From Thermoanaerobaculia bacterium (GTDB lineage Bacteria; Acidobacteriota; Thermoanaerobaculia; Multivoradales; JAHZIX01): a DNA stretch of 48,224 nt. Location of the stretch: assembly GCA_027069135.1 (NCBI GenBank), contig JALXFE010000393.1, forward strand, positions 1-48,224, in the 5' to 3' direction. This document shows, in pieces, positions 15,791 through 44,504 of the stretch (within the stretch, counting starts at the first letter, position 1; each line of letters opens with the position of its first letter). The notes beneath the pieces were generated by a model that did no database searches, was not told the origin of the DNA, and was given only the letters and a program-made list of their open reading frames with translations. A program made the translations under genes and the position numbers.

Positions 15791-18157
15791 ATGAAGCGGA
15801 ATGGGCCAAGAGGTCTCTGTTCAGTCTTTGCTTTGACGGCTCTCTTTTTGGGAGTTCCGCTCATCGCCCAGCCAGCGAAAGAGGAGCTCGAGCAGGAGCT
15901 TGTCAAGCCACCGGATAAGCCGGTGGACGAGATGACCCCGGAAGAGCTCAAGATTTTCCGACAGTGGCGCCGCCACCAGCTGGAGCTGCGAGAACAGGAG
16001 CAGGCGGAGAAGAATAAGGCCCCAGCGGGTAGCGTGACCTTCGAGCTGCCCTTCCCGGCGGAGAAGGGTGGGGGCAGTGCCCAGGGTTGGGCCGGCGGAA
16101 TCCAATACCAGCAGGACGACCTCGCGGTGCTGACGGACGGCGTCGTGATCCGGTACCAGGAAATCGAGATCAAGGCGGATCTCCTGGAAGTAGACCTCAC
16201 CCAGAAGGTCGTGAGCGCTTTCGGCAACGTCGTGCTCGACCAGGGGCCCCGTCGGTTGGCGGGCTCCACTCTCACCTTCGACCTGGAGTCCAAGACCGGG
16301 ACCGTGACCGACGCCAGCGCCTATGTCGATCCGGACTTCTACTTCACCGGAGCCCAGGTCAGCAAGACCGGCGAGGACACCTACCACGTCGAGGACGGCA
16401 TCTTTACCTCTTGTGAGGGTGAGTCGCCGGCATGGAGCTTCAGCCTCGGAAAAGCAGACATCGAAGTCGACGGTTACGCCCGCGTCCGGCACGCCGCGAT
16501 GCGGGTCAAGAACGTACCGGTTCTCTACTTGCCCTATGTGGTCTGGCCCGTCAAGCCGGACCGTACCTCCGGTTTCCTCGTCCCTAACATCGGATACTCC
16601 GAGCGCCGCGGCGGATATTTGGGGTTGGCCTACTACAAGGTTCTGGGTCAGAGCTACGACACGACCTTCCATGTAGATTATTACTCGAAGGATTACCTTG
16701 GCCTGGGGAATGAATTCCGATACCAGCCGACGGAGGGAACCCAGGGGAAGTGGCAGTTCTACGCCATCGACGATCCCGTGGAAAACGAATGGCGTTGGAA
16801 GCTGGATCTGGAGCACACCACCACCGATCTACCCTTCGGCATGCGAGGGGTTCTGAAGGTCCGGGAATTCTCGGACTTCGACTTTTTTCGAGATTTTGAA
16901 CGCAGCGCCGACCGCAACACGATTCGCACGCTGGAATCCCGCGGATTCGTCACCGGGAACTGGGGGCCGCACTCCCTGAATATCCTGATCAACAATCGGG
17001 AGACCTTCGTCAATCAGGGGAGGAACGTCGTCCTGCAGCGTCTCCCCGAGATCGAGTACGAGTTGCGCCCGACCCGCCTCGGTTCTCTACCTCTCTTCTT
17101 GAAGGTTCAAAGCTCCGTCAATTATCTGAGCGTCAACCGTTCCGCAAACTTGAACGAAGATTACGGCCGGGCCGATCTGGCGCCCCAGCTGATCTTGCCG
17201 GTGAAGTTGGCGTCGTGGTTGTCCATGTCCGTCGCGGCGGGCTACCGGGCGACCTGGTACGGTGATTCCGTGGGCCGCAACGCCGAAGGGCAGGATGTCT
17301 TCACGGGGGAGACTCTGACCCGTGACTTCTCCTTTGCCAGCGCCTCCTTTGTCGGACCCTCTTTCTCGAGGATCTACGAGAAGAAATCGGGCCGCTACGA
17401 GAAGCTCAAGCACGTGATCGAGCCACGGTGGGATTACAGCTTCATCGAAGATATCGACGATCGCAGCGCGGTTCCCCTCTTCGACGAGATCGATCGGTTG
17501 AACTCCAACAACGTAGGGAAATTCTCGTTGGTCAACCGGTTGCTAGCCAAGGCTCGCCCGAAAGAAGGAGAGAAGTCCAGTGCCGGCGCCCGGGAAATTC
17601 TCTCCTGGGAGATCTCCCGCAGATATAGCTTCGATGACGACCGGCCCCTCCAGACCGGGAGCTTCGCGGCTTTTGGGGGCGTGGACGACGGCCTCGGAGA
17701 CGGCCGTGTGGAACGCCAGGCCGGGCCGATCTCGAGCCTTCTGCGGTTCAATCCCAGCAACAAGACGAATCTCACGGCCCGGATGAACTACAACACTCTC
17801 TTCAGCCAGATCACCTCCACTTCCCTTTCCGGTTCTTTGGGCCTGGGAAGGAATACCGTGGGCCTGAGCTGGCGGACGAATTGGAATGCCGAGACGGGGG
17901 ATAAGCGGTCGGACCAGGCCCGTGTCGGTGGATCTTTCACCCTGCTTCCCCAGAGGCTCAACCTCAAGGCCGATTGGGTGTACGACATCGAGAAGTCGTT
18001 GCTCCAGCAGCAACGATACCTGCTCAACTATCGCGGATCCTGTTACGGGTTTACCTTCGAGTGGCGGGAATCGGAATTCGGTACCCGCCAGGAAAAAGAC
18101 CTGCGTTTCTCCTTGACCTTGAAAAATGTCGGCACCTTCCTCGACTTGACCCATTGA
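15791..18157 (+). CDS. lptD: LPS assembly outer-membrane protein LptD
   Basis: LptD with LptE inserts lipopolysaccharide into the outer leaflet. The 788-residue protein has a Sec signal (FALTALFLGVPLIAQ), a charged periplasmic spacer, an OstA/LptA-like beta-jellyroll at about 105-230 (ADLLEVDLTQKVVSAFGNVVLDQG, GTVTDASAYVDPDFYFTGAQ) and a C-terminal beta-barrel with the conserved VPVLYLPYVVWPVKPDRTSGF junction. The final strand ends FSLTLKNVGTFLDLTH. This marks a diderm envelope with LPS or a similar glycolipid. The gene directly precedes the nucleotide-sugar genes. Confidence 0.94.
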   Translation: MKRNGPRGLCSVFALTALFLGVPLIAQPAKEELEQELVKPPDKPVDEMTPEELKIFRQWRRHQLELREQEQAEKNKAPAGSVTFELPFPAEKGGGSAQGWAGGIQYQQDDLAVLTDGVVIRYQEIEIKADLLEVDLTQKVVSAFGNVVLDQGPRRLAGSTLTFDLESKTGTVTDASAYVDPDFYFTGAQVSKTGEDTYHVEDGIFTSCEGESPAWSFSLGKADIEVDGYARVRHAAMRVKNVPVLYLPYVVWPVKPDRTSGFLVPNIGYSERRGGYLGLAYYKVLGQSYDTTFHVDYYSKDYLGLGNEFRYQPTEGTQGKWQFYAIDDPVENEWRWKLDLEHTTTDLPFGMRGVLKVREFSDFDFFRDFERSADRNTIRTLESRGFVTGNWGPHSLNILINNRETFVNQGRNVVLQRLPEIEYELRPTRLGSLPLFLKVQSSVNYLSVNRSANLNEDYGRADLAPQLILPVKLASWLSMSVAAGYRATWYGDSVGRNAEGQDVFTGETLTRDFSFASASFVGPSFSRIYEKKSGRYEKLKHVIEPRWDYSFIEDIDDRSAVPLFDEIDRLNSNNVGKFSLVNRLLAKARPKEGEKSSAGAREILSWEISRRYSFDDDRPLQTGSFAAFGGVDDGLGDGRVERQAGPISSLLRFNPSNKTNLTARMNYNTLFSQITSTSLSGSLGLGRNTVGLSWRTNWNAETGDKRSDQARVGGSFTLLPQRLNLKADWVYDIEKSLLQQQRYLLNYRGSCYGFTFEWRESEFGTRQEKDLRFSLTLKNVGTFLDLTH

Positions 18158-18244
18158 CCGTCCGGGCAACGGGTGCGACGCAGCGGCCACAGGCCCGCAG
18201 CCCGATCGCCTGGAGGCCCCGGATTGTCCAGTAGTGGAGACACC

Positions 18245-19312
18245 ATGAAAGGTTTGATTCTCTCCGGTGGAAGAGGCACGCGGCTTAGGCCTCTGACCTA
18301 CACTTCCGCCAAGCAACTCGTCCCCATCGCCAACAAGCCCATCCTTTTCTTTTGTATCGAATCCGTGGTCGCGGCGGGCATCACGGAAATCGGAATCGTC
18401 GTGGGAGAAACGGCGGACGAAGTACGAGCTGCGGTGGGAGACGGGAGCCGATTCGGCGCCCGGGTGACCTACATCGAGCAGGAGGCCCCTCGAGGTCTGG
18501 CCCATGCGGTCCTGATCGCGGAAGACTTCATCGGTGACGAACCCTTCGTCATGTACCTCGGGGACAACCTCATCGCCGGCGGGATCACGAGCCTGGTGGA
18601 CGAGTTCCAGGAGCTCGGTCCGAGTGCTGAGATTTTGCTGGCCGAAGTCCCGGATCCCCGCCAGTTCGGGGTCGCTGAGCTGACAGAGAACGGGCGCATC
18701 CGCCGCTTGGTGGAAAAACCTCCGGAGCCCAAGAGCAATCTCGCTCTGGTGGGTGTCTATTTGTTCTCATCGGAAATTTTTGAGTCCGTCCGGCGGATCA
18801 AGCCCTCCCCCCGCGGCGAGTTGGAGATCACCGACGCCATCCAGGATCTCATCGACCGGGATCTGTGGGTTCACCCCCACAAAGTCCAGGGTTGGTGGAA
18901 AGATACCGGGAAGCTCGAGGATGTCCTAGAGGCCAACCGCATCATGCTCGACACCTTCGATACCCAGGCGCACCGGACCTGGCCGCCGGGGGTGAAAGTG
19001 GAGGGCCGCGTCGAGTTGGGAGAAGGCGTGGAGCTGGTCGATGCCCTGATCCGTGGCCCGGTCGTCATCGGTGCCGGCACCCGCGTCGAGAACGCCTTCG
19101 TGGGGCCCTATACCGCGATCGGAGAACGCTGCGTTCTCAAGCGCTGCGAGGTCGAGAATTCGATCATCCTGTCGGATTGTGAGATTCAAGACATCCCCTT
19201 GCGTATCGACGGCTCCCTGATCGGACGCAACGCCCGCATCGTCAAGACCGACTTCAAGCCGAAGGCCTACCGCTTCATGCTCGGGGATAATAGCGAGGTC
19301 GGAATCACCTAG
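18245..19312 (+). CDS. Glucose-1-phosphate thymidylyltransferase, long form
   Basis: The enzyme makes dTDP-glucose from glucose 1-phosphate and dTTP. The nucleotidyltransferase signature LILSGGRGTRLRPLTYTSAKQ is at the N-terminus, with the FVMYLGDNL metal-site motif at about 100 and KVQGWWKDTGKLEDVLEAN. At 355 residues it is the long form: a C-terminal left-handed beta-helix (VEGRVELGEGVELVDALIRGPVVIG...) follows the transferase domain, unlike the roughly 290-residue RmlA. It is the first of four sugar genes; the RmlD gene starts two bases after its stop. Confidence 0.92.
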   Translation: MKGLILSGGRGTRLRPLTYTSAKQLVPIANKPILFFCIESVVAAGITEIGIVVGETADEVRAAVGDGSRFGARVTYIEQEAPRGLAHAVLIAEDFIGDEPFVMYLGDNLIAGGITSLVDEFQELGPSAEILLAEVPDPRQFGVAELTENGRIRRLVEKPPEPKSNLALVGVYLFSSEIFESVRRIKPSPRGELEITDAIQDLIDRDLWVHPHKVQGWWKDTGKLEDVLEANRIMLDTFDTQAHRTWPPGVKVEGRVELGEGVELVDALIRGPVVIGAGTRVENAFVGPYTAIGERCVLKRCEVENSIILSDCEIQDIPLRIDGSLIGRNARIVKTDFKPKAYRFMLGDNSEVGIT

Positions 19313-19314
19313 AG

Positions 19315-20157
19315 ATGAGAGTTCTGGTCTTTGGGGGTACCGGCATGTTGGGGCGCTCGGTGGTGGGTGAGGCCCGCCGTCGCGGCTACCCAGCCCTGGG
19401 CTTGTCCCGGGAGCAGGGGGATATCACGCAGTCGGACGTACCGCGTCAGTGGGTGGAGCGGTTTCGGCCCCAGGTGGTGGTCAATTGTGCCGCCTTTACG
19501 CGCGTGGACGATTGCGAGGCGCACAAAGAGCAGGCCCTTGAGGTGAACGGTCACTCGGTCGCCCATGTGGTCGCGGGGGCCCAGAGCCTCGGTGCCCGGT
19601 TGGTACAGGTTTCGACCGACTACGTGTTCGACGGCCGTGGGACGTCCCCGTATCCCAATGATGGCCGGACCGGGCCGGTCAGCGTCTACGGGGAGAGCAA
19701 GCTTCTGGGAGAGCAAGAAGCTTTGGCCTACGACCGGTCCTTGGTGTTACGAGTGAGCTGGCTCTTCGGCGCCGGCGCCGGCAACTTCGTAACGACCATG
19801 CTGCGTCTGGCCAGGCAGGGCATGAACCCTCTGCGGGTCGTGGACGACCAGGTCGGTGGGCCGACCTATACGAGATTCCTGGCGAGGGCTCTGCTGGACC
19901 TCGCCGGGGCAGAGGCTACAGGAGTGCTGAGCTACCAAAACCGCGAGGCCGTTTCCTGGTACGGTTTCGCTCGCGAGATCCTGCGTCAGGAGTACCCTGC
20001 CGTCGCCGTCGAGGCGGTGAAAACGGAAGATTTTCCCCGTCCGGCTCCTCGGCCCGCCTACTCCGTTCTGGACGTCTCCCCCACGGAGGCGATTCTGGGC
20101 CGACCGGTGGAGACCTGGAGCGCGGGGCTCGCCCACTATCTAGCAGAGATCGGCTAG
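19315..20157 (+). CDS. rfbD: dTDP-4-dehydrorhamnose reductase (RmlD-like)
   Basis: A 280-residue extended SDR expected to reduce dTDP-4-keto-rhamnose to dTDP-L-rhamnose. It shows the nucleotide-binding VLVFGGTGMLG, VVNCAAFTRVDDCE, the QVSTDYVFDG segment, YGESKLLGE with the Y-x3-K pair, and the C-terminal DVSPTEAILGRP. The start ATG lies two bases beyond the thymidylyltransferase stop. Genes for RmlB and RmlC, needed for the complete dTDP-rhamnose route, are not in the window, so they must lie elsewhere or the enzyme acts on another keto sugar. Confidence 0.92.
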   Translation: MRVLVFGGTGMLGRSVVGEARRRGYPALGLSREQGDITQSDVPRQWVERFRPQVVVNCAAFTRVDDCEAHKEQALEVNGHSVAHVVAGAQSLGARLVQVSTDYVFDGRGTSPYPNDGRTGPVSVYGESKLLGEQEALAYDRSLVLRVSWLFGAGAGNFVTTMLRLARQGMNPLRVVDDQVGGPTYTRFLARALLDLAGAEATGVLSYQNREAVSWYGFAREILRQEYPAVAVEAVKTEDFPRPAPRPAYSVLDVSPTEAILGRPVETWSAGLAHYLAEIG

Positions 20158-20188
20158 CGCAAAATGCGCCGCATAGGGAGTGTAAGAG

Positions 20189-21172
20189 ATGAAGAAGGCT
20201 TTGATCACCGGCGTTACGGGCTTTGCGGGCTCGCATCTGGCGGAATATCTTCTGGCAGAGCATCCGGATGTCGAGATTCACGGGACCTACCGCTGGCGTA
20301 GCCGGACGGAGAATATCCGTGGTTTCAAGGAGCGCATTCGGCTGCACGATGGCGAGCTACGGGACTATTCCTCGATGCGCAACGTCCTCGAAGCCGTAAA
20401 GCCCGATTGGATTTTTCACCTGGCGGCCCAGAGTTACGTACCCGCCAGCTGGACGGCTCCCAGTGACACCTTGACCACCAACATCACGGGGCAGACCAAC
20501 CTCTTTGAAGCGATCCGCGACCTGGAGCTGGATCCGGTCGTGCAGATCGCCTGCTCCAGCGAGGAGTACGGCCTGGTTCGGCCGGAAGAAACCCCCATCG
20601 TCGAAACCAACGCTCTCCGGCCCCTCTCTCCCTATGCGGTTTCCAAAGTGGCCCAGGATCTGCTCGCCTACCAGTACTTCCAGAGCTATGGCATGAAAGT
20701 GATCCGCACCCGTGGTTTCAATCACACGGGGCCGCGGCGGGGGCCGGTCTTTGTCACCTCCAACTTCGCCCGCCAGATCGCCTCCATCGAAGCCGGGCTG
20801 CAAGAGCCGGTGATCCGCGTCGGGAATCTGGAGGCCGTGCGCGATTTCACCGACGTCCGTGACATGGTCCGGGCCTACTGGCTCGCGGTGACGAAAGGCC
20901 GGCCCGGCGAGGTGTACAACATCGCCAGCGGATTCGGCATCACCATTCGAGAGCTCCTGAACCGGCTGCTGGCGCTCAGCTCGGCCCAGGTCAAGATCGA
21001 GGTCGATCCCGACCGGTTGCGACCTTCCGACGTGGAGATTCTCATCGGGGATTGCTCAAAATTCCACCAGGACACCGGTTGGAAGCCACAGATCTCCCTG
21101 GAGAAGACCCTGAGCGACACCCTCGACTTTTGGCGCGATCGTCTATCGGCTTCTTCGTCCAGCCAAGGCTAA
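20189..21172 (+). CDS. GDP-mannose 4,6-dehydratase-like NAD-dependent epimerase/dehydratase
   Basis: A 327-residue extended SDR. It has TGVTGFAGSHLAEYLL, IFHLAAQSYVPASWTAP (typical of GDP-mannose dehydratases), the catalytic SSEEYG and SPYAVSK, RTRGFNHTGPRRGPVFVTSNFA and an ending like that of Gmd proteins. It probably converts GDP-mannose to GDP-4-keto-6-deoxymannose. The following gene is a fitting reductase, so the pair would give GDP-D-rhamnose or a related 6-deoxyhexose. It is 31 bases after rmlD. Confidence 0.88.
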   Translation: MKKALITGVTGFAGSHLAEYLLAEHPDVEIHGTYRWRSRTENIRGFKERIRLHDGELRDYSSMRNVLEAVKPDWIFHLAAQSYVPASWTAPSDTLTTNITGQTNLFEAIRDLELDPVVQIACSSEEYGLVRPEETPIVETNALRPLSPYAVSKVAQDLLAYQYFQSYGMKVIRTRGFNHTGPRRGPVFVTSNFARQIASIEAGLQEPVIRVGNLEAVRDFTDVRDMVRAYWLAVTKGRPGEVYNIASGFGITIRELLNRLLALSSAQVKIEVDPDRLRPSDVEILIGDCSKFHQDTGWKPQISLEKTLSDTLDFWRDRLSASSSSQG

Positions 21173-21173
21173 C

Positions 21174-22127
21174 GTGAGGTTCTTTCTCACCGGCTTCTCC
21201 GGTTTCGTCGGGTCGCGCTTAGCGCGGCTTCTCCTCGACGCCGGAGAGTCCGTCAGCGGGACCTACGTCGGGGAGCCTCCCTCGATGAGGGATTGTGGCG
21301 CCACCTGTGTAGATCTGCGGGACGTAGAAGGCCTGCGCCATGCGATCGAAGCTTTCGATCCGGAGGTGGTCATCCACCTGGGGGGCTTGAGCCACGTCGG
21401 CGCTTCCTGGGAGCGCCCAGCAGAGTATTTTCAAGTCAACGTCATGGGTACGGAATCGGTCCTCGAGGCCGCCGCTGGGCGACGGATCGTCATCGCTTCG
21501 AGCTCCGAGGTGTACGGCAAGGTGCCGGCCGAGGAACAGCCCATCTCCATCCATCGTCCGCTGGCTCCCCAAACTCCCTATGCCTTGACCAAGGCCGCAG
21601 CGGAGCGGCTGGCCATCGCCAAGGGTGCTGTCGTCGTCCGTTCGTTCAATGCCGTCGGAGCCGGTCAAGCTCCGAGCTTCGCCTTGCCGGCCTTCGCTCG
21701 TCAGCTGGCCCGGATCCGAGCCGGGAAGCAGAAGCCGATCCTCTCCGTGGGCAATCTGGAGGCGCGGCGAGACTTTGTCCACGTAGAGGATGTCGCCCGC
21801 GGCTATCGTGCGGTGGCCCTGCGGGGAGATCCCGGGAGTTGCTACAACCTGGCCACGGGAAAAGCCCCTTCGATGGCGGAGGCGCTGGATCGGCTGCTGC
21901 AGATTTCCGGTGTCGAGGCGGAGATTTGCCAAGACCCACAGCGGATGCGGCCGGTGGACATGCCCTTACTCCGCGGGGATGCCAGGGAATTACGTGACCT
22001 GGGTTGGAAGCCCTTGAAGACCTTAGAGGAGGCTCTCGAAGAGCTCTGGGATGCCGAGCTCCGTGTTTCTGAGCTCCGTGTTTCTGAGCTCCGTGCTTTC
22101 GAGTCCCCGGAGGGAGGGGCGCGATGA
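21174..22127 (+). CDS. GDP-4-keto-6-deoxy-D-mannose reductase-like SDR
   Basis: A 317-residue extended SDR starting at GTG 21174, directly after the dehydratase stop. It has FLTGFSGFVGSRLARLL, VIHLGGLSHVGASWERP, IASSSEVYG, TPYALTKAAAE (Y-x3-K) and VRSFNAVGAGQAPSFALPAFA. This pattern fits Rmd, which reduces the product of the upstream enzyme. The C-terminus carries three 15-bp repeats encoding ELRVS-like units, beyond the domain. Its stop overlaps the next start (ATGA), linking the sugar genes to the isoprenoid run. Confidence 0.87.
   Translation: MRFFLTGFSGFVGSRLARLLLDAGESVSGTYVGEPPSMRDCGATCVDLRDVEGLRHAIEAFDPEVVIHLGGLSHVGASWERPAEYFQVNVMGTESVLEAAAGRRIVIASSSEVYGKVPAEEQPISIHRPLAPQTPYALTKAAAERLAIAKGAVVVRSFNAVGAGQAPSFALPAFARQLARIRAGKQKPILSVGNLEARRDFVHVEDVARGYRAVALRGDPGSCYNLATGKAPSMAEALDRLLQISGVEAEICQDPQRMRPVDMPLLRGDARELRDLGWKPLKTLEEALEELWDAELRVSELRVSELRAFESPEGGAR
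22056..22100 (+). repeat. Three 15-bp tandem repeats at the end of the reductase gene
   Basis: Units start at 22056, 22071 and 22086. The first two are identical (GAGCTCCGTGTTTCT) and the third differs at three positions. They are in frame and lie beyond the end of the enzymatic domain. The core CTCCGTG recurs in the 15-bp repeat inside the terpene cyclase gene at 33479. Confidence 0.92.
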
Positions 22128-23467
22128 TTTCCCGAGGAGAGTTGCTTCGCAAGTTGCTGCATATGGCAGTTGGGCTCATCGCCTTTGCCGTGCGCTTTCT
22201 CGGGCCCGTGGGGTCTGCCGCCTGCGCTTTGACGGCGACCCTTTTCAATCTCCTCCTGCTGCCTCGCATCGGAGGCAAGAATCTGTGGCGAGAAGCCGAG
22301 ACCGCCCGCGGCGCTTCTCTGGGAATCGTCCTCTACCCGCTGACGGTCCTCCTGCTGATCCTCGCTTTCTGGCGACATCTCGAGGTGGCAGCGGGAATCT
22401 GGGGCATCCTGGCCTTCGGCGATGGGATGGCCTCCCTGGTGGGAATGTCCGTGGGCCGACGGAAATTGCCCTGGAATCCGGGCAAGAGCTGGGCCGGCTC
22501 TCTGGCCTATTGGATCTTCGGCACTGCCGCCTGCACGACCCTCTTGTTGTGGACCGCCGGGGGGACGGACCGCGTGTACTCCCTGCCCTTCGTCCTGGGA
22601 ATCAGCGCTGTCGCGGCCCTCGTTGCCGCTGCCTTGGAGTCCCTACCCCTGGGACTGGACGACAATCTGGGGGTTCCCTTGGTGACCGGCCTCCTCCTCT
22701 TCGGTCTGACCCTGACCATGGGAGGTTACGGAATTTTCTCCTCGGAGGAATTCTTGCAGCGTTTGGTGGTCGCCGCCGGGGTGAATCTGGTTCTCGCCGG
22801 TCTCGGCTACGCCAGCCGAGGAGTGAACGTCTCCGGCGCCGTGGCTGGGTTCCTGGTTGGCACATTGATCTACGTATGCCTCGATTGGCGAGGCTACGCG
22901 TTGCTCCTGGCTTTTTTCGTTCTGGGAACGGCGGTGACGAAGCTCGGGTACCAACGCAAGGCCGCCGCCGGCCTGGCCCAGGAAGGCGGGGGGCGCCGCG
23001 GTGCCAAGCACGCTTTGGCCAATACTTCCGTGGCCGCCGCTTGCGCCTTCTTTGCTCTGATGACGCCCTATCCGGAGCTCTTCACCCTCGCCTTCGCCGC
23101 CGCCTTTGCCACCAAGACCTCGGACACTGCTTCGAGCGAAATCGGCCAGCTCTGGGGCCGGCGAACCTTCCTGCTAACGACTCTGCGTCCCGTTCCCCGG
23201 GGAACCGAAGGGGCCGTGTCCATGGAGGGTACCGTCGCCGGTATCCTGGCCTCTGTCTTGGTGGCCGGGCTCGGGGCGGCGGCAGGTCTCTACGCCTATT
23301 CGTGGATCTGGGTGATCGTCCTCGCCGCCTTCGTCGGCACGACCCTCGAAAGCCTGGTCGGCGCCACCCTCGAAAGACAAGGCCTCCTCGACAACGAAGC
23401 CGTCAACTTCCTAAACACTCTGATCGGCGCGCTGACAGCGGCCGCCGCCTACGGGTTCCTTTCCTGA
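22124..23467 (+). CDS. Fused phytol/dolichol-kinase-like and DUF92 (phytyl-phosphate-kinase-like) membrane protein
   Basis: A 447-residue polytopic membrane protein made of two kinase-like halves. The N-terminal half (about 1-205) resembles phytol and dolichol kinases: LLRKLLHMAVG, the AFGDGMASLVGMSVGR motif and GKSWAGS. The C-terminal half (about 220-447) is DUF92, the family of plant VTE6: VSGAVAGFLVGT, ATKTSDTASSEIGQ, VPRGTEGAVSMEGTVAG, GTTLESLVGATLE and LDNEAVNFLNTLIGA. In plants VTE5 and VTE6 phosphorylate phytol twice. A single chain with both activities would turn a polyprenol into its diphosphate. The start overlaps the previous stop, with GGAGG upstream. The neighbour is a UbiA prenyltransferase. 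Confidence 0.85.
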   Translation: MISRGELLRKLLHMAVGLIAFAVRFLGPVGSAACALTATLFNLLLLPRIGGKNLWREAETARGASLGIVLYPLTVLLLILAFWRHLEVAAGIWGILAFGDGMASLVGMSVGRRKLPWNPGKSWAGSLAYWIFGTAACTTLLLWTAGGTDRVYSLPFVLGISAVAALVAAALESLPLGLDDNLGVPLVTGLLLFGLTLTMGGYGIFSSEEFLQRLVVAAGVNLVLAGLGYASRGVNVSGAVAGFLVGTLIYVCLDWRGYALLLAFFVLGTAVTKLGYQRKAAAGLAQEGGGRRGAKHALANTSVAAACAFFALMTPYPELFTLAFAAAFATKTSDTASSEIGQLWGRRTFLLTTLRPVPRGTEGAVSMEGTVAGILASVLVAGLGAAAGLYAYSWIWVIVLAAFVGTTLESLVGATLERQGLLDNEAVNFLNTLIGALTAAAAYGFLS

Positions 23468-23477
23468 GAGTCGATCG

Positions 23478-24464
23478 ATGAGCAACTATCCTCATTACGT
23501 CAAGCTGGCCCGACCGTTCACATTGCTGCCCCCGCTTCTGGGCATCATCTCCGGTGCGGTCTGTGCGTTCGGGTCCATCCACAATCCGGACCCGGAGGCG
23601 CGGCTGACTCTGGCGGTCGTATTGACCGTAGCCCTCGGATCCCTGTGCGCCGGCTTCATGAACGCGGCTTCGAACGCCATCAATCAGATCTGCGACCTGG
23701 AGATCGACCGTCTCAACAAGCCCGAGCGCCCCCTGGTGACGGGAGCTCTGTCGCTGCGTCAGGGGTGGCTCTTCACCTGGGTCTTTTATGCCTTGGCCTT
23801 GGTGCCCACCTGGCTCGTAGTGGTCTATCCCTACAACAGCTGGTTGGAAAAACTGGGCGCTCCCCTGGCCTCCCACGAGACGTTCTTCATCTATCTGGCG
23901 GGTCTGATTTTCACCTTCATCTACTCGGCTCCCCAGCTGGGCCGCACCAAGACGAAGGGTTTTCTCGCCAGTTTGACGATCGCCATTCCCCGGGGGGTTC
24001 TGCTCAAAGTCGCCGGCTGGGCCATGGTGGCCCGGGTCGCCCACACGGAGCCCTGGTTCATCGGCGCGGTCTTCGGCCTCTACCTCATCGGCGCCTCTGT
24101 GACCAAAGACTTTGCCGATATGGAGGGGGACCGTGCCGGTGGTTGCCGGACACTCCCCATCGTTTATGGCGTCCGCAAGGCTGCCTGGATGATCAGCCCG
24201 TTCTTCATTTTTCCGTGGCTCCTGCTGCCTCTGGGTGCCTACTTGCCAGATCCCCAAGCACCGGAGCACCCCATCCTGACCGGCAACGCGAACCTCCTCA
24301 CAGGGCTGGGCATCCTCCTGACCTTCTGGGGGATCTACACCGTCTACCTCCTGCTCCGCGACCCGGACTCCTTGGCAGAGACCGAGAACCACCCCTCTTG
24401 GACCCACATGTACATGATGATGATGGCGGCGCAGGTGGGTTTTGCGCTAGCGTACGTGTTGTGA
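23478..24464 (+). CDS. UbiA family prenyltransferase
   Basis: A membrane enzyme that transfers a prenyl chain from its diphosphate to an aromatic ring or another acceptor. The 328-residue protein has the first aspartate-rich motif at 69-77 (N69-x3-D73-x3-D77, in NQICDLEIDRLNKPERPLV) and the second as KDFADMEGDRAGG, with about eight or nine hydrophobic segments. It resembles the chlorophyll synthase/geranylgeranyl transferase branch more than UbiA itself, but the acceptor cannot be read. It starts ten bases after the kinase fusion, which could supply or recycle its prenyl donor. Confidence 0.92.
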   Translation: MSNYPHYVKLARPFTLLPPLLGIISGAVCAFGSIHNPDPEARLTLAVVLTVALGSLCAGFMNAASNAINQICDLEIDRLNKPERPLVTGALSLRQGWLFTWVFYALALVPTWLVVVYPYNSWLEKLGAPLASHETFFIYLAGLIFTFIYSAPQLGRTKTKGFLASLTIAIPRGVLLKVAGWAMVARVAHTEPWFIGAVFGLYLIGASVTKDFADMEGDRAGGCRTLPIVYGVRKAAWMISPFFIFPWLLLPLGAYLPDPQAPEHPILTGNANLLTGLGILLTFWGIYTVYLLLRDPDSLAETENHPSWTHMYMMMMAAQVGFALAYVL

Positions 24465-24587: not shown

Positions 24588-25889
24588 ATGGCGCCGGAAG
24601 CTGCGAAAAAATCGCCCGAGGCTACATCTGCGTCGCCTCTCCCTCCCTCTCCCCTTCCCGAGATTTCTAGCCAGCGAAGCTTCTTCCGTGAACAGGCGGT
24701 GCTCGCCCGGATGGCCTGGCGGGCGGTTCGAAGCTTGTCCCCCAAGGTCGCCTTCAAGGCCGGGCATCTCTACGCCTACAAGGGTGCTAAGGCCATCTGG
24801 TCTTATAAGCGGCGTCTCAAACGGGGTGAGCTCTACCCTCCCTTCATGTTCATCGCCCTCACCAACACTTGCAACCTGCGATGCCACGGTTGTTGGGTGG
24901 AGAAGGAGGGTACGGCGCATTTCATGGGCGAAGAGGATCTCGATCGCATCATCGAGTCCGGCAAGCGCCAGAACGCCTATTACTACACTCTCCTGGGAGG
25001 AGAACCGTTCCTCTTCAAGGGAATCTGGGACGTCTTCGAGCGCCACTCCGACTGTTATTTCCAGGTCATCACCAACGGCATGTTGTTCACTGAGGAGAAC
25101 GTCCGCAGTCTGGCCCGGGCGGGCAATGTGACCCCCCTCATCAGCCTCGACGGCTGGCAGGGGCAAAACGATCTACGCCGCGGCGAAGGGGTGTGGGAGT
25201 CCGCCCTCGAAGGACTCGAGCGGTTGCGCCGGGCCAAGCTTCTCTTCGGCATCGCCACCACCGCCACGGGCCTCAACATGCACGAGGTGATGTCTGATGA
25301 GTACCTTCAATTTTTCATCGATCGGGGCGCCATGTACCTTTGGTATTACGTCTACCGGCCGATGGGGGAGGTGGCCCATCCGGAGTATTGCGTTTCCAAG
25401 GATCAGCTGATCTGGATGCGTCGCCGGCTCCTGGAGTTGCGTCGAACCCAACCGATCCTGGTCATCGATACCTATTGGACGGCGGACGGCGAGGCCTTCT
25501 GCCCCGCGGCCACCGGCATGGGGTACCACATCGGGCCTCGGGGCAGTATCGAAATCTGCCCCGCCTTATCGTTTGCAACGGATACGGTGCAGGGTGAAGG
25601 GGATCTCTACGATACCTTCAATGACAGCGGTTTCCTGCGAGGATTCCAACGCTTCGTCAAGGACCGCACCAAGGGCTGCGTGATCCTGGAGCATCCCCAG
25701 GAGCTCCATGACTATATTCGGGACAGCGGTGCTAAGGATTACAGCGGCCGGGACACAGCTTTCGCCGAGCTCGACTCGATCACCCCGCGCCACAGCCATC
25801 ACCTACCGGATCATGAGATACCCGAGGATTTCTGGGTCTATCGACTGCTCAAGAAGAATGTCTTCTTCGGTATGGGGGCGATCGGTTGA
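24588..25889 (+). CDS. Radical SAM protein with C-terminal cysteine motif
   Basis: A 433-residue radical SAM enzyme. The cluster motif is C95-x3-C99-x2-C102 in TNTCNLRCHGCW, and YYTLLGGEPFLF is the SAM-contacting GGE motif. Further on, GEAFCPAATG and SIEICPALSFA give extra cysteines in the place where SPASM-like domains bind another cluster. Residues 1-80 are a poorly conserved basic extension. The ATG at 24588 has GAGGG upstream; a separate 37-codon frame begins at 24557 with an even better ribosome site and overlaps it. The stop overlaps the cysteine desulfurase TTG start. The substrate is unknown; the setting suggests the isoprenoid or a protein carrier. Confidence 0.88.
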   Translation: MAPEAAKKSPEATSASPLPPSPLPEISSQRSFFREQAVLARMAWRAVRSLSPKVAFKAGHLYAYKGAKAIWSYKRRLKRGELYPPFMFIALTNTCNLRCHGCWVEKEGTAHFMGEEDLDRIIESGKRQNAYYYTLLGGEPFLFKGIWDVFERHSDCYFQVITNGMLFTEENVRSLARAGNVTPLISLDGWQGQNDLRRGEGVWESALEGLERLRRAKLLFGIATTATGLNMHEVMSDEYLQFFIDRGAMYLWYYVYRPMGEVAHPEYCVSKDQLIWMRRRLLELRRTQPILVIDTYWTADGEAFCPAATGMGYHIGPRGSIEICPALSFATDTVQGEGDLYDTFNDSGFLRGFQRFVKDRTKGCVILEHPQELHDYIRDSGAKDYSGRDTAFAELDSITPRHSHHLPDHEIPEDFWVYRLLKKNVFFGMGAIG

Positions 25890-27100
25890 ATCAAGCCCTG
25901 GACGCCAAGACCGGCGGCACCCCTTCCCTGCCGGTCTACCTCGATCACCATGCGACCACCCCCTGTGATCCCCGGGTCGTGGAGGTCATGCTCCCCTGCT
26001 TCGGTGAGGTCTACGGCAATCCCGCGAGCCAGCAACACTCTCCCGGGTGCGCGGCACGGAGTCTCGTCGAGGGAGCCCGCGAGCAAGTGGCAGATCTTCT
26101 CGGCTGCGGCACCTCGGAAGTGGTGTTTACCTCCGGCGCTACCGAATCCGACAACCTGGCCATCAAGGGTGTGATGGAGTCCACCGCGACCCGGGGGCGT
26201 CACCTGATCACCGCGGCGACGGAGCATAAAGCGGTACTGGATGTCTGCACACGCCTCGAGCGGCGGGGCTATGAAGTGACCTATCTGGCCGTCGAGGCGG
26301 ATGGCCGGGTGTGTCCCGACAGAGTGTCTCAGGCCCTGCGCGAGGAGACCGTGCTGGTGAGTCTGATGCTTGCCAACAACGAGATCGGAGTGCTGCATCC
26401 CATTGCCCAGATCGCCGAGTGCTGCCGGGAGCGAGGCGTTCTTCTGCACTGCGACGCCGCCCAAGCCCTGGCGACTCTCGATTGTGACGTCAACGCTCTG
26501 GGAGTCGACCTGATGTCGGTCTCCGCCCACAAGGCCTATGGTCCCAAGGGGGTCGGGGCTCTTTACGTGCGCCGCCGCCGGCCCCACGTACGGCTTTCGG
26601 CGCAACTCGACGGCGGCGGCCATGAGGGAGGCCGGCGCTCCGGCACCGTCAATGTTCCCGGGGTGGTCGGTTTTGGTGAGGCCTGTGCGATCATCGCCGG
26701 CCGCCGGGAGGCCGACGCTCGCCAGCAGCGCTTCCTTCGCGACCGCCTGCTGCACCGACTGCGGCGGGGCAGATCGGATCTGCGGGTGCATGGCAGCCTC
26801 GAACACCGTCTGCCGAACAACCTCAACGTCTCTTTCCCGGGTATCGACGCCGGCCGCCTGGTGCGGGAGGTGGGCTCCGTCGCGGTCTCCTCCGGCGCAG
26901 CTTGTAGCGCTCCGGGGACCGACGGCTCCTATGTCCTCAAGGCCCTTCCCGGCTCCGCCGCTGAGCTCGGGTCCATCCGCTTCGGCCTCGGCCGAGGTAC
27001 CACGGAGGCGGAAGTAGATTTCGCCGCCGGGGAGATCCTCGCCGCTGTCGCCGCCCATGAGCCCGATCCCAAGGTCGACGCTTGTGCTGCTACCTGCTGA
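25886..27100 (+). CDS. Cysteine desulfurase (NifS/IscS family)
   Basis: A PLP enzyme that takes sulfur from cysteine as a protein persulfide for iron-sulfur clusters or other thio-products. The 404-residue protein has YLDHHATTP, SGATESDNLAIKG, TEHKAVLDVC, the PLP lysine K216 in SAHKAYGPKG, RSGTVNVPGVVGFG and the active cysteine C340 in SSGAACSAPGTDGSYVLKAL. It starts with TTG overlapping the radical SAM stop. No scaffold protein (IscU, NifU, SufBCD) is adjacent, so the sulfur may go to the Fe-S proteins of this run or into a product. Confidence 0.94.
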   Translation: MNQALDAKTGGTPSLPVYLDHHATTPCDPRVVEVMLPCFGEVYGNPASQQHSPGCAARSLVEGAREQVADLLGCGTSEVVFTSGATESDNLAIKGVMESTATRGRHLITAATEHKAVLDVCTRLERRGYEVTYLAVEADGRVCPDRVSQALREETVLVSLMLANNEIGVLHPIAQIAECCRERGVLLHCDAAQALATLDCDVNALGVDLMSVSAHKAYGPKGVGALYVRRRRPHVRLSAQLDGGGHEGGRRSGTVNVPGVVGFGEACAIIAGRREADARQQRFLRDRLLHRLRRGRSDLRVHGSLEHRLPNNLNVSFPGIDAGRLVREVGSVAVSSGAACSAPGTDGSYVLKALPGSAAELGSIRFGLGRGTTEAEVDFAAGEILAAVAAHEPDPKVDACAATC

Positions 27101-27117
27101 GGCATAGGGAGTCGTCA

Positions 27118-27603
27118 TTGTCTAACCAACCCACCGAGACCGTTCGATTTCAACGCAGCCGCTTCATCGCTCGGCTACCCAAGGACTACCTTTACAGTCC
27201 GGCCCATTTCTGGCTCGCCGAACAGAGTCCGGGGCGCTGGCATATCGGCCTGACCAGCTTCGCCACTCGCATGTTGGGAGAGATCGTCGAGGTGGATTTC
27301 GAGGTGGCGCCGGAGGCGCCGGTGGCTAGCGGCCAAGTCGTCGGTTGGATGGAAGGCTTCAAGGCCACCGCCGATCTTTTCTGCGTCGCCGATGGCCGTT
27401 TCGCCGGTGGCAACGAGGAAGTCCTCGAGGACGCCGAGAAGGTCTGCGCCGATCCCTATGGATCGGGGTGGCTCTACGCCGTCGACGGCACGCCGGACCC
27501 CCAGGCAATCCCGGTCGAGGGCTACTTGGAGCTTCTCGGAGAGACCATCGATGCGATGGAGGAAAAACCATGGCAGGCACCGGAGATGGGGCCCGGCGAA
27601 TGA
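27118..27603 (+). CDS. GcvH-like lipoyl-carrier protein
   Basis: A 161-residue protein with the lipoyl fold of glycine cleavage H protein. HFWLAEQSPGRWHIGLTSFA, MLGEIVEVDF, GWMEGFKATADLFCVADGRF (the lipoylated lysine would be K82) and EKVCADPYGSGWLYAV line up with GcvH. It differs by a 25-residue N-terminal part, an unusual MEGFKA for the usual VESVKA and extra cysteines (C89, C110). No gcvT, gcvP or lpd is near, so it more likely serves a dedicated redox or sulfur-carrier role, as LbpA does in the sHdr pathway. The TTG start at 27118 follows AGGGAG. The next gene overlaps its stop. Confidence 0.88.
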   Translation: MSNQPTETVRFQRSRFIARLPKDYLYSPAHFWLAEQSPGRWHIGLTSFATRMLGEIVEVDFEVAPEAPVASGQVVGWMEGFKATADLFCVADGRFAGGNEEVLEDAEKVCADPYGSGWLYAVDGTPDPQAIPVEGYLELLGETIDAMEEKPWQAPEMGPGE

Positions 27604-28745
27604 TGGAATCGAAAGCGCGCTACGTCATGATCGGCGGTTTCCTGGGGGCCGGGAAGTCCACGGCGGTCGGCCGCATGGCCCGCCACCTGACGGACCGCGG
27701 CCTACGGGTGGGCCTGATTACCAACGACCAGGGAGCCGGCCTCGTCGATACGCGGAGCCTGCGGCACCAGGGCTATGCCGTCGAAGAAATCGCCGGCGGC
27801 TGTTTCTGCTGCCGATTTGATTCCCTGGCGAGCGCTGCCGAGCGCCTCGACGAAGCCCGTCGCCCGGACGTCTTCTTAGCGGAGCCGGTGGGCAGCTGCA
27901 CGGATCTGCTGGCGACGGTGAGCTATCCCCTGCGGCGGATCTACGGTGAGCGCTTCGCCCTGGCTCCCCTTTCGGTGATGATCGATCCCCGCCGTGCCGC
28001 CCGGGTGCTCGGGGTCGGCAGCGGCCGGCACTTTTCAAAGAAAGTGACCTACATCTACCTCAAGCAGCTGGAGGAGGCCGAGATCATTGTCCTCAACAAA
28101 CTCGATCTCCTGGATGAGGGAGATCTCGACGCGTTGCGGGGGGCTCTCGGCCAGCGATTTCCCGACAAGACGGTATGCGAGGTTTCCGCCCGGCGCGGGG
28201 ACGGCCTTAAGGAGTGGTTCGCCCGCCTCGAAGGGGACGACGGTGGTCTCGGCTCTCCCCTCGAGATCGACTACCGCCTCTATGGTGAAGGCGAAGCCCT
28301 CCTCGGTTGGCTCAACGCCACGGTCCAGCTCGCCGCGGTCGAAGAATTCGACGGCAACGAGTGGCTCGCCGCCTTGGCCGAGCGGCTGCAGAAGCGCCTG
28401 GTGATCGCCGGAGCGGAGGTAGCGCATCTCAAGATGACTCTCTCCCCGGCACAATCCGGCACGTATCTTCCGGATCTGGCGCTGGTCAATCTCGTGGGCC
28501 TAGATTTCGTATCCGAGCTTTCGCAGCGGCTCCAGGCACCGATCCGTGGGGGCCAGCTGATCGTCAACCTACGGGCTGAGGCACCGCCTCAAGTGCTCCA
28601 GCAGGCGGTCGAGGAAGAGCTTGCAACCCCTCCCTCAAACCCTGCTGTGGAAATGCGGCTCGACCACCTCGAGTGCTTCCGCCCGGGCCAGCCCCTGCCC
28701 ACCCACCGCATGACCGCCGCCGGCCCTTTGAAGGGGGAGCGATGA
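27600..28745 (+). CDS. COG0523 (CobW-type) GTPase
   Basis: A G3E-family GTPase of 381 residues. The Walker A is GGFLGAGKST (12-21), the metal-binding GGCFCC motif has C68, C70 and C71, and the base-specificity motif is NKLD at 166-169. Members insert or deliver metals such as zinc or cobalt. The N-terminal domain is well conserved and the C-terminal half (from about 230) is divergent. The start ATG at 27600 overlaps the GcvH-like stop. In this setting it may load metal into one of the cysteine-rich neighbours, which is inference. Confidence 0.9.
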   Translation: MMESKARYVMIGGFLGAGKSTAVGRMARHLTDRGLRVGLITNDQGAGLVDTRSLRHQGYAVEEIAGGCFCCRFDSLASAAERLDEARRPDVFLAEPVGSCTDLLATVSYPLRRIYGERFALAPLSVMIDPRRAARVLGVGSGRHFSKKVTYIYLKQLEEAEIIVLNKLDLLDEGDLDALRGALGQRFPDKTVCEVSARRGDGLKEWFARLEGDDGGLGSPLEIDYRLYGEGEALLGWLNATVQLAAVEEFDGNEWLAALAERLQKRLVIAGAEVAHLKMTLSPAQSGTYLPDLALVNLVGLDFVSELSQRLQAPIRGGQLIVNLRAEAPPQVLQQAVEEELATPPSNPAVEMRLDHLECFRPGQPLPTHRMTAAGPLKGER

Positions 28746-29110
28746 GCTGTTCCGGGAGTCGCATCCTCTACTGCAATTGCACCTACGCCCGGGTGGTCGC
28801 CCAAGAGACCAAAGCGGCCGTTCTCGACGGGCTCGCTCAATCCGGCGTCGCCTTCGACGCCGTGCCGGATCTCTGTGAGCTCGCCGCTCGTCGCGACCCG
28901 GCCCTCGAGCGCCTTGCCGCCGGGGATTCCCCCCTGGAGATCGTCGCTTGCTACCCGCGGGCGGTCCGGTGGCTCTTCCACGCGGCCGGTGCGCCGTTGC
29001 CGGAAGACGGGGTGACGATACACAACATGCGAACCGAAGCACCCGAAACTACCCTGGCCACCGTTCTCGGGAGCGAGACCGAGCCAACCCAACCGGAGAC
29101 CTCCTCATGA
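28742..29110 (+). CDS. Small cysteine protein resembling the HdrA N-terminal domain
   Basis: A 122-residue soluble protein with C3, C11, C13, C45 and C70. The order YCNCTYARVV, DLCELAARRDP and IVACYPRAVRWLF recalls the N-terminal Fe-S domain of HdrA heterodisulfide reductases (CHCGxN, TCSxxG, VVAACSPRTHExLF) without the flavin part. It overlaps its neighbours on both sides by ATGA. It probably carries or helps to form an iron-sulfur cluster and works with the ferredoxin that follows. The family assignment is my reading of motif order, not a database match. Confidence 0.68.
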   Translation: MSCSGSRILYCNCTYARVVAQETKAAVLDGLAQSGVAFDAVPDLCELAARRDPALERLAAGDSPLEIVACYPRAVRWLFHAAGAPLPEDGVTIHNMRTEAPETTLATVLGSETEPTQPETSS

Positions 29111-29934
29111 CCCTCGCCGCTCCATCCCTGCGGGTCGTTCTCGATCAGCGCCAAGGCCCGGCCTTCGAGGCTGATCGAAAGACATCTCTGCTCCGCACCC
29201 TTCTCGATGCCGGCTACATCGTCAGCTGCAACGGTGAGGAAGGCGAGTTGGCGCCCTTGGATGCCAGCCAGCTGCTGGTACTCCGAGAGGGCACAGCGGC
29301 GGAAGATCAGGAGGCGGAATCGACCGAAGGCCAGATCCCGGTGACCTTTCGTGGTGTTCGGAAGCTCGATGCAGACGCCGTCCTCGGTCTCGTTAGAGAG
29401 TTGCAGGGTTCGACGGCCGAGCCCGGGGACTGGAAACCCTGGTTCCCGGTCATCGACTACGACCGCTGTACGAATTGCATGCAATGCCTGAGCTTCTGTC
29501 TTTTCGGGGTCTATGATGTCGACGAAGACAAGACGATCGACGTGGCCCAGCCGGAGAAATGCAAGACGAATTGCCCGGCCTGCTCCCGGGTCTGTCCCGA
29601 GGTGGCGATTCTTTTCCCGAAGTACAAGAACGGGCCCATCAACGGTGACGAAGTCCAGGCCCAGGATGTCCAGCGGGAGAAGATGAAGACCGATATTTCT
29701 TCTCTGCTGGGGGGAGACATCTACTCGATGCTGCGGGAGCGTCACGCTCGGGCCAACACCCGGTTTTCCAAGGAGCGGGACGAAGAGCGGGCCCTCAAGG
29801 AACGGCGTCGCTGTCTGGTCAAGCTCCAGCAAGAGTTGGATATCCCGGAGGAAGTCCTCGCCCAGCTGCCGTCGGCAGAACAGATTCTGGAGAAGGCTTC
29901 CCGGCACTCTTCGCCTCGGGATGGCTCATCCTAA
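29107..29934 (+). CDS. Ferredoxin-domain protein with two [4Fe-4S] sites
   Basis: A 275-residue cytoplasmic protein. Cluster motif 1 is C121-x2-C124-x2-C127-x3-C131 (DRCTNCMQCLSFC) and motif 2 is C152-x3-C156-x2-C159-x3-C163 (KCKTNCPACSRVCP). Residues 1-110 lack a clear match but hold C41 in VSCNGEEG. The C-terminal 90 residues are charged and probably helical (coiled-coil-like). It would pass electrons to the radical SAM or another partner in the run. The start overlaps the previous stop (ATGA). Confidence 0.84.
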   Translation: MTLAAPSLRVVLDQRQGPAFEADRKTSLLRTLLDAGYIVSCNGEEGELAPLDASQLLVLREGTAAEDQEAESTEGQIPVTFRGVRKLDADAVLGLVRELQGSTAEPGDWKPWFPVIDYDRCTNCMQCLSFCLFGVYDVDEDKTIDVAQPEKCKTNCPACSRVCPEVAILFPKYKNGPINGDEVQAQDVQREKMKTDISSLLGGDIYSMLRERHARANTRFSKERDEERALKERRRCLVKLQQELDIPEEVLAQLPSAEQILEKASRHSSPRDGSS

Positions 29935-29986
29935 GGACGTATTGAGGCCCCAGGGGCTTTTAAGGAATAAGTTAAGGAGACCCGCC

Positions 29987-31708
29987 GTGTCACTGCCCAT
30001 CGTCAGCTTGCCTCAAAGTGTTCCGCCGCTGCCTCAGCGACCGACCCAGGATGACGTCCCGGCGACCCGGGCCGAACGCGACGAGATCCTCGCGCAGGCG
30101 CGGACGTTTCTTAGGCAGCACAAGCTGGTGCCGCCGATGCCCATGGGGGAGCTGCGGACCCAGGCCGGCACCTTCTGCGAAACTTACGAGATCGACCCGA
30201 GGTATCTCGAATTCTGTGCCTTGATCCTCAGCAACGAGCTATGGCGGGAAGACCTGGCGACGATTCCCTATAACCGGCGACTTCTCCTCCTGCCCAAATG
30301 CCTGCGGGTGGAGGATAAGTGCCCGGCTCCTTTCGATGAATTCGGTCTCCTGTGCAAGAAATGCGGCCTGTGTACGATCCAAGACCTTCAGGAAGAGGCG
30401 GAGCGCCTCGGATACGCCGTGCTGGTGGCGGAAGGGTCGCCCATCGTCATGGCGATCATCGAAACCGGCAAGATCGAGGCCATCGTCGGTGTCAGCTGCC
30501 TGAGCGTGCTGCGCAAGGTCTATGGCTATATGGAGGCGGCGGCGATCCCCGGCGTAGCCCTGCCGCTGCTCCAGGACGATTGTGTGGACACCAGCGTCGA
30601 CCTTGAGTGGGTGTGGGATTCGGTACACCTCACCAGCGATGACAAGACGCGTCGGCTGGATCTCGTCGGCCTACGGGAAGAGGTCGACGGATGGTTCACC
30701 GCCGAAGGCCTGGCGAACCTCCTGGGGGCTCCGGACTCCGACGTCGAACGCCTCGGCCATCGTTGGTTGGCGCGCGGGGGCAAACGCTGGCGCCCGTTCC
30801 TCACGGTCGCAACGCACCAGGCCCTCTCCGTGGAACCTGGCGGCTCAATCCCGGAGGATTTGCGGCATGTGGCTCTGGCCGTCGAGTGTTTTCATAAGGC
30901 GTCTTTGGTCCACGACGACATCGAAGACGGTGACGACCAACGCTACGCAGAGGCCACCCTCCACAATTCCCACGGCGTACCCATCGCCCTCAACGTCGGT
31001 GACTACCTGCTGGGCGAGGGCTATCGCCTGCTAGCGGAATCCGCAGCTTCGCCGGAATGCCGGGGGGAGATGATGAGAATCGCCGCTCAAGGACATCGAA
31101 CCCTATCCGTCGGTCAAGGGGAGGAGCTCGCCTGGCAACGGGATCGCCGTCCCTTGAAGCCCGTAGAGGTGGTGGACATCTTCCGCCGCAAGACCGCGCC
31201 GGCCTTCGAGACCGCCCTGCGCCTGGGTGCCGTCTACGGAAACGCGCCGGACGATCTCCACGAGGCCATCGCCGCATATAGCCAGGCTCTGGGCATCGCC
31301 TACCAGATCCGCGACGACCTTGAGGACCTGAAGGACGCGGCGGCTCAGGGTGCGCCACCGGAGGCTCGGCCGACGATTCTTTGGGCCCTCGCTCATCAGG
31401 CTGCCAAGGGGGAGCGCAAGGCCGCCGTCGAGGCGGCCTGGTGCGGTCCCGACGAGGATCTATCGGCGGAGGCGGCCCATGAGTTGATCCGCGAGGCGGG
31501 TGCCGAAAGCCGAGCCCAGGAGCTTCTCGATGCCTACAAGGACGAAGCGGTGCGCACTCTCCGACGGGTGCAGAACGCCAACGTCAAAGGCCTCCTGCGG
31601 CGCACCGTAGGAAAAATCTTCAACGATCTCGAGATCCAGGGCTGGTGTAATGAGTTTGAGGCTCGAAACGCTCCAAGTGTCGCGCCTCGCGCCCAAGCTG
31701 TTGGGTGA
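29987..31708 (+). CDS. DUF116 domain fused to a polyprenyl diphosphate synthase
   Basis: A 573-residue fusion. The GTG start at 29987 has AAGGAG seven bases upstream; an ATG at 29921 is possible but overlaps the ferredoxin gene. Residues 95-210 are a DUF116-type domain with LLPKCLRVEDKCP, CKKCGLC (123-129), VGVSCLSVL (C171) and DDCVDTSVDLEWV (C199), a set able to bind an Fe-S cluster or metal. Residues about 235-560 are a class I trans-prenyl synthase: GGKRWRPFL, the first D-D-x2-D at D310, D311, D314 (LVHDDIEDGD) and the second at D443, D444, D447 (QIRDDLEDL). Both aspartate motifs are intact, so it should make a polyprenyl diphosphate. The linkage to a cysteine-rich domain is unusual. Confidence 0.9.
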   Translation: MSLPIVSLPQSVPPLPQRPTQDDVPATRAERDEILAQARTFLRQHKLVPPMPMGELRTQAGTFCETYEIDPRYLEFCALILSNELWREDLATIPYNRRLLLLPKCLRVEDKCPAPFDEFGLLCKKCGLCTIQDLQEEAERLGYAVLVAEGSPIVMAIIETGKIEAIVGVSCLSVLRKVYGYMEAAAIPGVALPLLQDDCVDTSVDLEWVWDSVHLTSDDKTRRLDLVGLREEVDGWFTAEGLANLLGAPDSDVERLGHRWLARGGKRWRPFLTVATHQALSVEPGGSIPEDLRHVALAVECFHKASLVHDDIEDGDDQRYAEATLHNSHGVPIALNVGDYLLGEGYRLLAESAASPECRGEMMRIAAQGHRTLSVGQGEELAWQRDRRPLKPVEVVDIFRRKTAPAFETALRLGAVYGNAPDDLHEAIAAYSQALGIAYQIRDDLEDLKDAAAQGAPPEARPTILWALAHQAAKGERKAAVEAAWCGPDEDLSAEAAHELIREAGAESRAQELLDAYKDEAVRTLRRVQNANVKGLLRRTVGKIFNDLEIQGWCNEFEARNAPSVAPRAQAVG

Positions 31709-32534
31709 GGCGACGGATCTGGTACGGGATTTCGTCGTCGAGCAGCTCCATGACGACGGCGGATTCTGCGACCGCCAGGGGGAGGCTGACCTCTATTACA
31801 CGGTCTTCGGCCTGGACTGTCTGCACGCTCTCGATGTAGCAGTCCCCACGGCGAAGGTGCGGCCCTACCTCGAAACTTTCGGCGACGGCGAAGGCCTCGA
31901 CCTCGTCCATTTGAGCTGCCTGGCCCGGAGTTGGGCCGCCCTGGGGACCCTGCCTGTCCAGCGCCCGGGCCTCCTGCGTCGGCTGTCGAGCTTTAGAAGC
32001 GGCGATGGCGGGTTCGCTTCCGCCTCCGGGGCCCGGGAAGGCAGCGTCTACGATGGTTTTCTCGCCGCCGGTGCCTTCGAAGATCTCGGCGAAGAGGTTC
32101 CCGAGCGCAACGTCCTCGCGGAGTACATCTTGGGCTTTGAAACCGCGGACGGAGGCTTTGCCAACGATCGTCGAGTAGAAACCGGTACCACCCCGGTCAC
32201 CGCCGCGGCGGTGGTTTTGCTCCCTCATCTCGGCCGGGAGGCGCCCCCTCGGGCCGTCCGGTGGCTGCTGGCGCAGGCCCATCGCCAGGGCGGCTTTGTG
32301 GCGGCTTCGGGGGCTCCTATGCCAGATTTGCTTTCCACCGCCACGGCCCTCCACGCTCTGGCGGCCCTCGAACACCCCCTCTCGGATTTGACCGAGCCCT
32401 GCCTGGATTACGTTGATTCTCTATGGACCAACCGGGGCGCCTTCCATGGCAATTGGGCGGATGACTCGGTAGACGTGGAATACACCTTCTACGGTCTGCT
32501 GACCCTCGGTCATCTGAGCCTCTGGAGCCGCTGA
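31650..32534 (+). CDS. Prenyltransferase/squalene-cyclase-repeat protein (alpha-barrel)
   Basis: A 294-residue protein built of repeats typical of protein prenyltransferase beta subunits and terpene cyclases: LHDDGGF, RSGDGGFAS, ETADGGFAND, RQGGFVAAS, and near the end DDSVDVEYTFYGLLTLGHL. The Asp, Cys and His zinc ligands of protein prenyltransferases are not evident, and there is no DXDD motif. It could be a stand-alone partner or half of a cyclase, or a binding protein for a prenyl chain. It overlaps the polyprenyl synthase gene by 59 bases and its stop overlaps the next start (TGATG). Confidence 0.82.
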   Translation: MSLRLETLQVSRLAPKLLGEATDLVRDFVVEQLHDDGGFCDRQGEADLYYTVFGLDCLHALDVAVPTAKVRPYLETFGDGEGLDLVHLSCLARSWAALGTLPVQRPGLLRRLSSFRSGDGGFASASGAREGSVYDGFLAAGAFEDLGEEVPERNVLAEYILGFETADGGFANDRRVETGTTPVTAAAVVLLPHLGREAPPRAVRWLLAQAHRQGGFVAASGAPMPDLLSTATALHALAALEHPLSDLTEPCLDYVDSLWTNRGAFHGNWADDSVDVEYTFYGLLTLGHLSLWSR

Positions 32535-41281: not shown

Positions 41282-41299
41282 TCTCGGGAGCTTTAGACC

Positions 41300-44503: not shown

Positions 44504-44504
44504 G

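Follow-up and report, generated by a model that had tools for sequence, protein, structure and literature searches.

Within the window, a stretch of 48,224 nucleotides from a Thermoanaerobaculia bacterium (Acidobacteriota), one open reading frame joins two membrane domains in a single chain that, judged from sequence and model, is probably a bifunctional CTP-dependent membrane prenol/prenyl-phosphate kinase, predicted to make prenyl diphosphate for the UbiA-family prenyltransferase encoded next to it. The fusion is spread across the phylum and co-occurs strictly with this type of UbiA. A preliminary description had read the gene as VTE5-like and VTE6-like kinases in one chain beside UbiA. Both the two-domain chain and the adjacency to UbiA were borne out, the C half being DUF92 and the N half a distinct kinase-like domain. 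The VTE5 likeness of the N half stands at the level of the superfamily (profile relation, motif and a CdsA-like model), with no match to PF01148.

The fused reading frame and its two domains

The frame contains no internal stops. Its ATG shares bases with the stop codon of the upstream gene (21174-22127), and the UbiA gene starts 10 bases downstream of the frame (Table 1). As full-length fusions at about 30-65% identity recur in many independent genomes, the fusion is neither a chance frame nor an assembly artefact. Motifs are conserved in both halves across 40 homologues, and with these 40 as input the AlphaFold model of the whole fusion reached a pLDDT of 94.3 and a pTM of 0.91.

Table 1. 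Positions of the fused gene, its parts and its neighbours in the window
Feature	Position	Strand	Basis
Fused ORF, 447 aa, two CdsA-like membrane domains (predicted)	22124..23467 (ATG 22124, stop 23467)	+	Open frame, AlphaFold model
N-terminal domain, phytol/dolichol-kinase-like (putative VTE5-type)	22124..22765	+	hhalign to standalone Chloroflexota proteins, model, CdsA match
N-half motif DGMASLVGMSVGRRKLPWNPGKSWAG, residues 100-125, CTP-site-like	22421..22498	+	Fits D..A...G...G-x8-[KG]K[TS]..G
C-terminal domain, DUF92 / VTE6-type (PF01940)	22784..23431	+	Pfam E 5e-59, 200 bits
C-half motif DTASSEIGQLWG...GTEGAVSMEG, residues 334-369	23123..23230	+	Pattern in 39/40 homologues
UbiA-family prenyltransferase, ChlG/DGGGP-synthase type, linked partner	23478..24464	+	PF01040 E 3e-31
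lptD, rmlA, rmlD, two nucleotide-sugar dehydratase/epimerase genes	15791..22127	+	Also near fusion in relatives

The C half is by its sequence a member of the DUF92/VTE6 family and a putative prenyl-phosphate kinase. Residues 221-436 match PF01940 well over the curated cut-off of 27.5, confirming the DUF92 assignment, and the same model was matched by all 40 homologues. TIGR00297 also covers this domain and falls just under its cut-off, with 199.2 bits against 205.85.

The N half alone (residues 1-214) matched no Pfam or NCBIfam model over cut-off, and a search for PF01148 in the N half of our protein and of 40 homologues gave no match. We built a profile of 35 sequences, 34 of them N halves from fused proteins and one a standalone Anaerolineales protein, and searched it against Chloroflexota genomes, which yielded standalone proteins of about 200-290 residues. 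The profile of these proteins aligned with that of the N half over 192 columns (hhalign 99.9%, E 9.7e-36), a value that is somewhat favoured because the Anaerolineales protein sits in both sets; an unrelated membrane protein used as a control scored 0.1%. The standalone proteins are themselves classed as kinase-like through the motif and a few PF01148 matches (2 of 17, best 1.2e-6), and as these relatives match weakly or mostly not at all, PF01148 appears to cover the N-half branch poorly. At residues 100-125 the N half carries DGMASLVGMSVG-RRKLPWNP-GKSWAG, with DxxAxxxGxxxG-x8-xKSxxG intact. The form DGMASLVGMSVG-x8-GKSWAG fits, in spacing too and with the last residues relaxed, DxxAxxxGxxxG-x8-KKTxEG, which we take to be the CTP-site motif of human dolichol kinase. 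All 40 homologues keep D100, G107, G125, E172 and D180, and 39 keep K121. In dolichol kinase a C-terminal CTP pocket is required for activity (PMC11542857). The N half is thereby assigned to the VTE5/dolichol-kinase/CdsA-type superfamily, VTE5-like being a family-level label reached through the standalone Chloroflexota proteins.

Both halves therefore belong to kinase-like families, and the N half lies outside DUF92. A duplication of DUF92 was rejected, with a single DUF92 stretch in the chain and the profiles of the two halves scoring 32% against each other (standalone N-type against C half, 85%). This comparison is weak and pairs GD..A...G in one half with DT..SE.G in the other, so the two are probably distantly related members of one CTP-using superfamily and did not arise by a recent duplication. 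Searching the PDB by sequence gave no match for either the whole protein or the N profile, and the Foldseek rows for the whole model, mainly MATE/MurJ-type, were discarded as their scores were meaningless. The fold of the halves was then judged with a second aligner and with the N half folded alone (pLDDT 94.4). The best PDB match of the N half was CdsA (4q2e; Z 8.4, rmsd 6.1 over 174), followed by CarS (5guf; Z 6.3, rmsd 3.0 over 106), and the C half aligned with CarS (5guf; Z 6.7, rmsd 3.7 over 118) and CdsA (4q2g_A; Z 6.1, rmsd 2.9 over 125). Such scores, Z 6-8.4, are modest and near background for helical models, with CdsA ranked top for the N half.

Distribution of the fusion and its tie to UbiA

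Among 247 sampled Acidobacteriota genomes 113 contained a match, and our sorting of the matches gave about 85 genomes with the fusion, from 40 families, and 22 with DUF92 only; the fusion is thus present in other bacteria. Nearly all fusion-bearing genomes are without chlorophyll genes. A search of genome contigs contributed only two relatives, and plasmid records gave two DUF92 matches and zero fusions, the gene upstream of the Hymenobacter DUF92 being unrelated to the N half. Among the fusions, distances between N halves track those between C halves (r 0.75, 0 of 2000 permutations), the pattern expected if the two domains joined long ago and have been passed on together. A tree of the C halves places one standalone DUF92 protein with a fused protein from the same family (98 SH-aLRT), which suggests loss of the N half. 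This pairing (L073:9111-9800, L052:7042-8394) falls in a family whose phototrophic members carry the fusion.

In Chloroflexota the N-type protein and DUF92 are separate genes, which lie on different contigs or at distances of hundreds of kb. DUF92 is present in all 23 genomes whose N-type match is strong (E below 1e-16), and in 44 of the 121 genomes overall; the E threshold was chosen post hoc, and five weaker matches (1e-16 to 1e-13) come from genomes without DUF92.

The partner UbiA is the third in the host genome, the other two being heme O synthase and MenA. The nearest NCBIfam models are ChlG and PRK12884, both matched far under cut-off (ChlG 104 against 313 bits), as was homogentisate phytyltransferase (60 against 226), and as its scores lie far below every curated cut-off it belongs to an unnamed subfamily. 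The donors of the known ChlG/DGGGP-synthase-type members of the UbiA superfamily are C20 compounds. This UbiA type was found in 73 of the 247 genomes and the fusion in 73 of these 73, within 5 kb of it in 53 genomes and further apart or on other contigs in 20, so that none of the 247 has the UbiA type without the fusion and 12 have the fusion without the UbiA type. The Fisher value for this co-occurrence is 2e-50, a figure inflated by shared ancestry, so that counting families, of which there are 35, gives a fairer measure. Around the non-adjacent UbiA genes the only recurrent neighbour was a prenyl synthase, seen in three loci. Among non-phototrophic Chloroflexota carrying both kinase types this UbiA type was not found.

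Proposed function and alternative readings

We propose that the N domain would phosphorylate an isoprenoid alcohol, probably of C15-C20, with CTP as the likely nucleotide, and that the C domain would then add the second phosphate, turning prenyl phosphate into prenyl diphosphate, with the intermediate possibly channelled between the domains. The co-inherited UbiA would use this diphosphate to prenylate an acceptor. As the fusion and one prenyl-attaching enzyme almost always occur together in relatives, recharging of an isoprenoid alcohol is the probable role. In its favour we count the DUF92 match, the profile relation of the N half, the intact motif, the likeness to CdsA and CarS, the Chloroflexota pairing and the UbiA co-occurrence. 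Against it stand the 12 fusion genomes from which UbiA is missing, the LPS and nucleotide-sugar neighbours and fold scores near background. Given those 12 genomes and the non-phototrophic Chloroflexota that have no such UbiA, the kinases can serve something else. On the side of the proposal, the plant and cyanobacterial proteins of these families are kinases of phytol, farnesol and phytyl phosphate that prefer CTP (PMC9782597).

As the source of the prenol, chlorophyll was rejected for the host genome, in which bchL was not matched, and with bchL over cut-off in only 3 of the 247 sampled genomes it is not the usual source either; those three carry the fusion and lack the partner UbiA type. A true salvage cycle is less likely than a bifunctional kinase simply feeding UbiA, because de novo use is also possible: a non-photosynthetic Euglena keeps both VTE5 and VTE6, and the authors of that study infer that the two act de novo (PMC7580956). 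More speculatively, and with rather less confidence than we place in a bifunctional kinase feeding UbiA, a single enzyme might perform both charging steps in non-photosynthetic bacteria and feed a dedicated, unnamed UbiA within an undescribed prenyl cycle, in which a chain of C20 or similar length would be attached to a lipid or cofactor, set free again as its alcohol and then recharged.

The main rival comes from the genes upstream. Across the phylum, lptD and dTDP/GDP-sugar genes precede the fusion in most relatives, including those in which UbiA lies elsewhere. The N half could accordingly be a long-chain polyprenol (dolichol-type) kinase for an envelope-glycan lipid carrier, with the C half adding or tuning a second phosphate and UbiA acting on the carrier. 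We consider this unlikely, as the UbiA is nearest to the ChlG and DGGGP synthase models and not to polyprenyl-phosphate phosphoribosyltransferase, and since undecaprenyl carriers act as monophosphates a second kinase step would be wasteful. The modest similarity of VTE5 and FOLK to dolichol kinase (PMC9782597) speaks for such an enzyme.

The putative CdsA/CarS-like fold of both halves also allows for one or both being lipid enzymes that use CTP in another way, for instance a DGK1-like diacylglycerol kinase or a cytidylyltransferase, the superfamily including such enzymes. The host genome would leave room for one: it has no PF01148 match over cut-off and hence no recognisable CdsA, while the same search was positive in 14 of 14 control genomes, and this may reflect a gap in the 626-contig assembly or a divergent enzyme. 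We nevertheless regard this reading as improbable given the DUF92 domain in the same chain and the strict coupling to a prenyltransferase, and a housekeeping role is excluded by the lack of the fusion in the majority of the phylum's genomes.

Directly downstream of UbiA lies a cluster of nine genes (24588-34462) encoding a radical SAM protein, a cysteine desulfurase, GcvH-like and CobW-like proteins, a small protein, a ferredoxin, a DUF116-prenyl synthase and two squalene-cyclase-like proteins. The same genes recur patchily in about 10 of 396 genomes of the phylum, and the cluster looks like a mobile pathway for a terpenoid, possibly one containing sulfur. Its DUF116 and trans-prenyl diphosphate synthase domains form one chain (29921-31708), a second unusual fusion in the window. 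Further downstream, at 40625-45884, are genes like ActA, ActB and ActC of alternative complex III, named by reading their sequences. That the fused kinase is part of the nine-gene cluster is very improbable despite the shared strand and direct succession in the window, as none of the nine genes lies near the fusion in 40 loci of relatives (a radical SAM and a prenyl synthase were each matched once, at a distance), and the cluster stands complete or near-complete in other genomes of the phylum, where the stretches read contained neither the fusion nor UbiA. It is therefore a neighbour of the fusion and UbiA and a separate unit. What the preliminary description called this pathway should accordingly be taken as the fusion and UbiA, leaving out the sulfur, radical-SAM and terpenoid genes that follow.

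Comparison with known systems

Only in plants and cyanobacteria are prenol salvage genes firmly established, and they are generally held to encode two enzymes that act independently and are difficult to assay (PMC9782597); the published salvage enzymes agree with the earlier statement that plants use separate proteins (PMC9782597). The enzyme families and their functional pairing in plants are already published. The literature searched, which did not include the key VTE6 paper, nowhere describes the fusion, and we leave priority for it unclaimed. With both domains in one chain, the protein lends itself to demonstrating the two steps and to structure determination. That it is so strictly linked, in non-photosynthetic bacteria, to an unnamed prenyltransferase points to an undescribed prenylated compound, and the link between N-type proteins and DUF92 in a second phylum, Chloroflexota, supports the pairing of both families outside photosynthesis.

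The plant phytol and farnesol kinases VTE5 and FOLK, and ScVTE5 of Synechocystis, resemble the N half by way of the standalone-protein profile and the CTP-site-like motif, whereas here the domain is joined to DUF92 and no chlorophyll genes were found in the host. The phytyl-phosphate kinase VTE6 (At1g78620, COG1836/DUF92) is related through the DUF92 match of the C half, its type of domain being here the second in a longer chain. ChlG, homogentisate phytyltransferase and DGGGP synthase share PF01040 with the partner UbiA and provide the models nearest to it. With CdsA (4q2e) and CarS (5guf) both halves may share a similar predicted fold, CTP being the likely nucleotide here too. CdsA and CarS transfer CMP, not phosphate, and their conserved motifs differ from those in the fusion.
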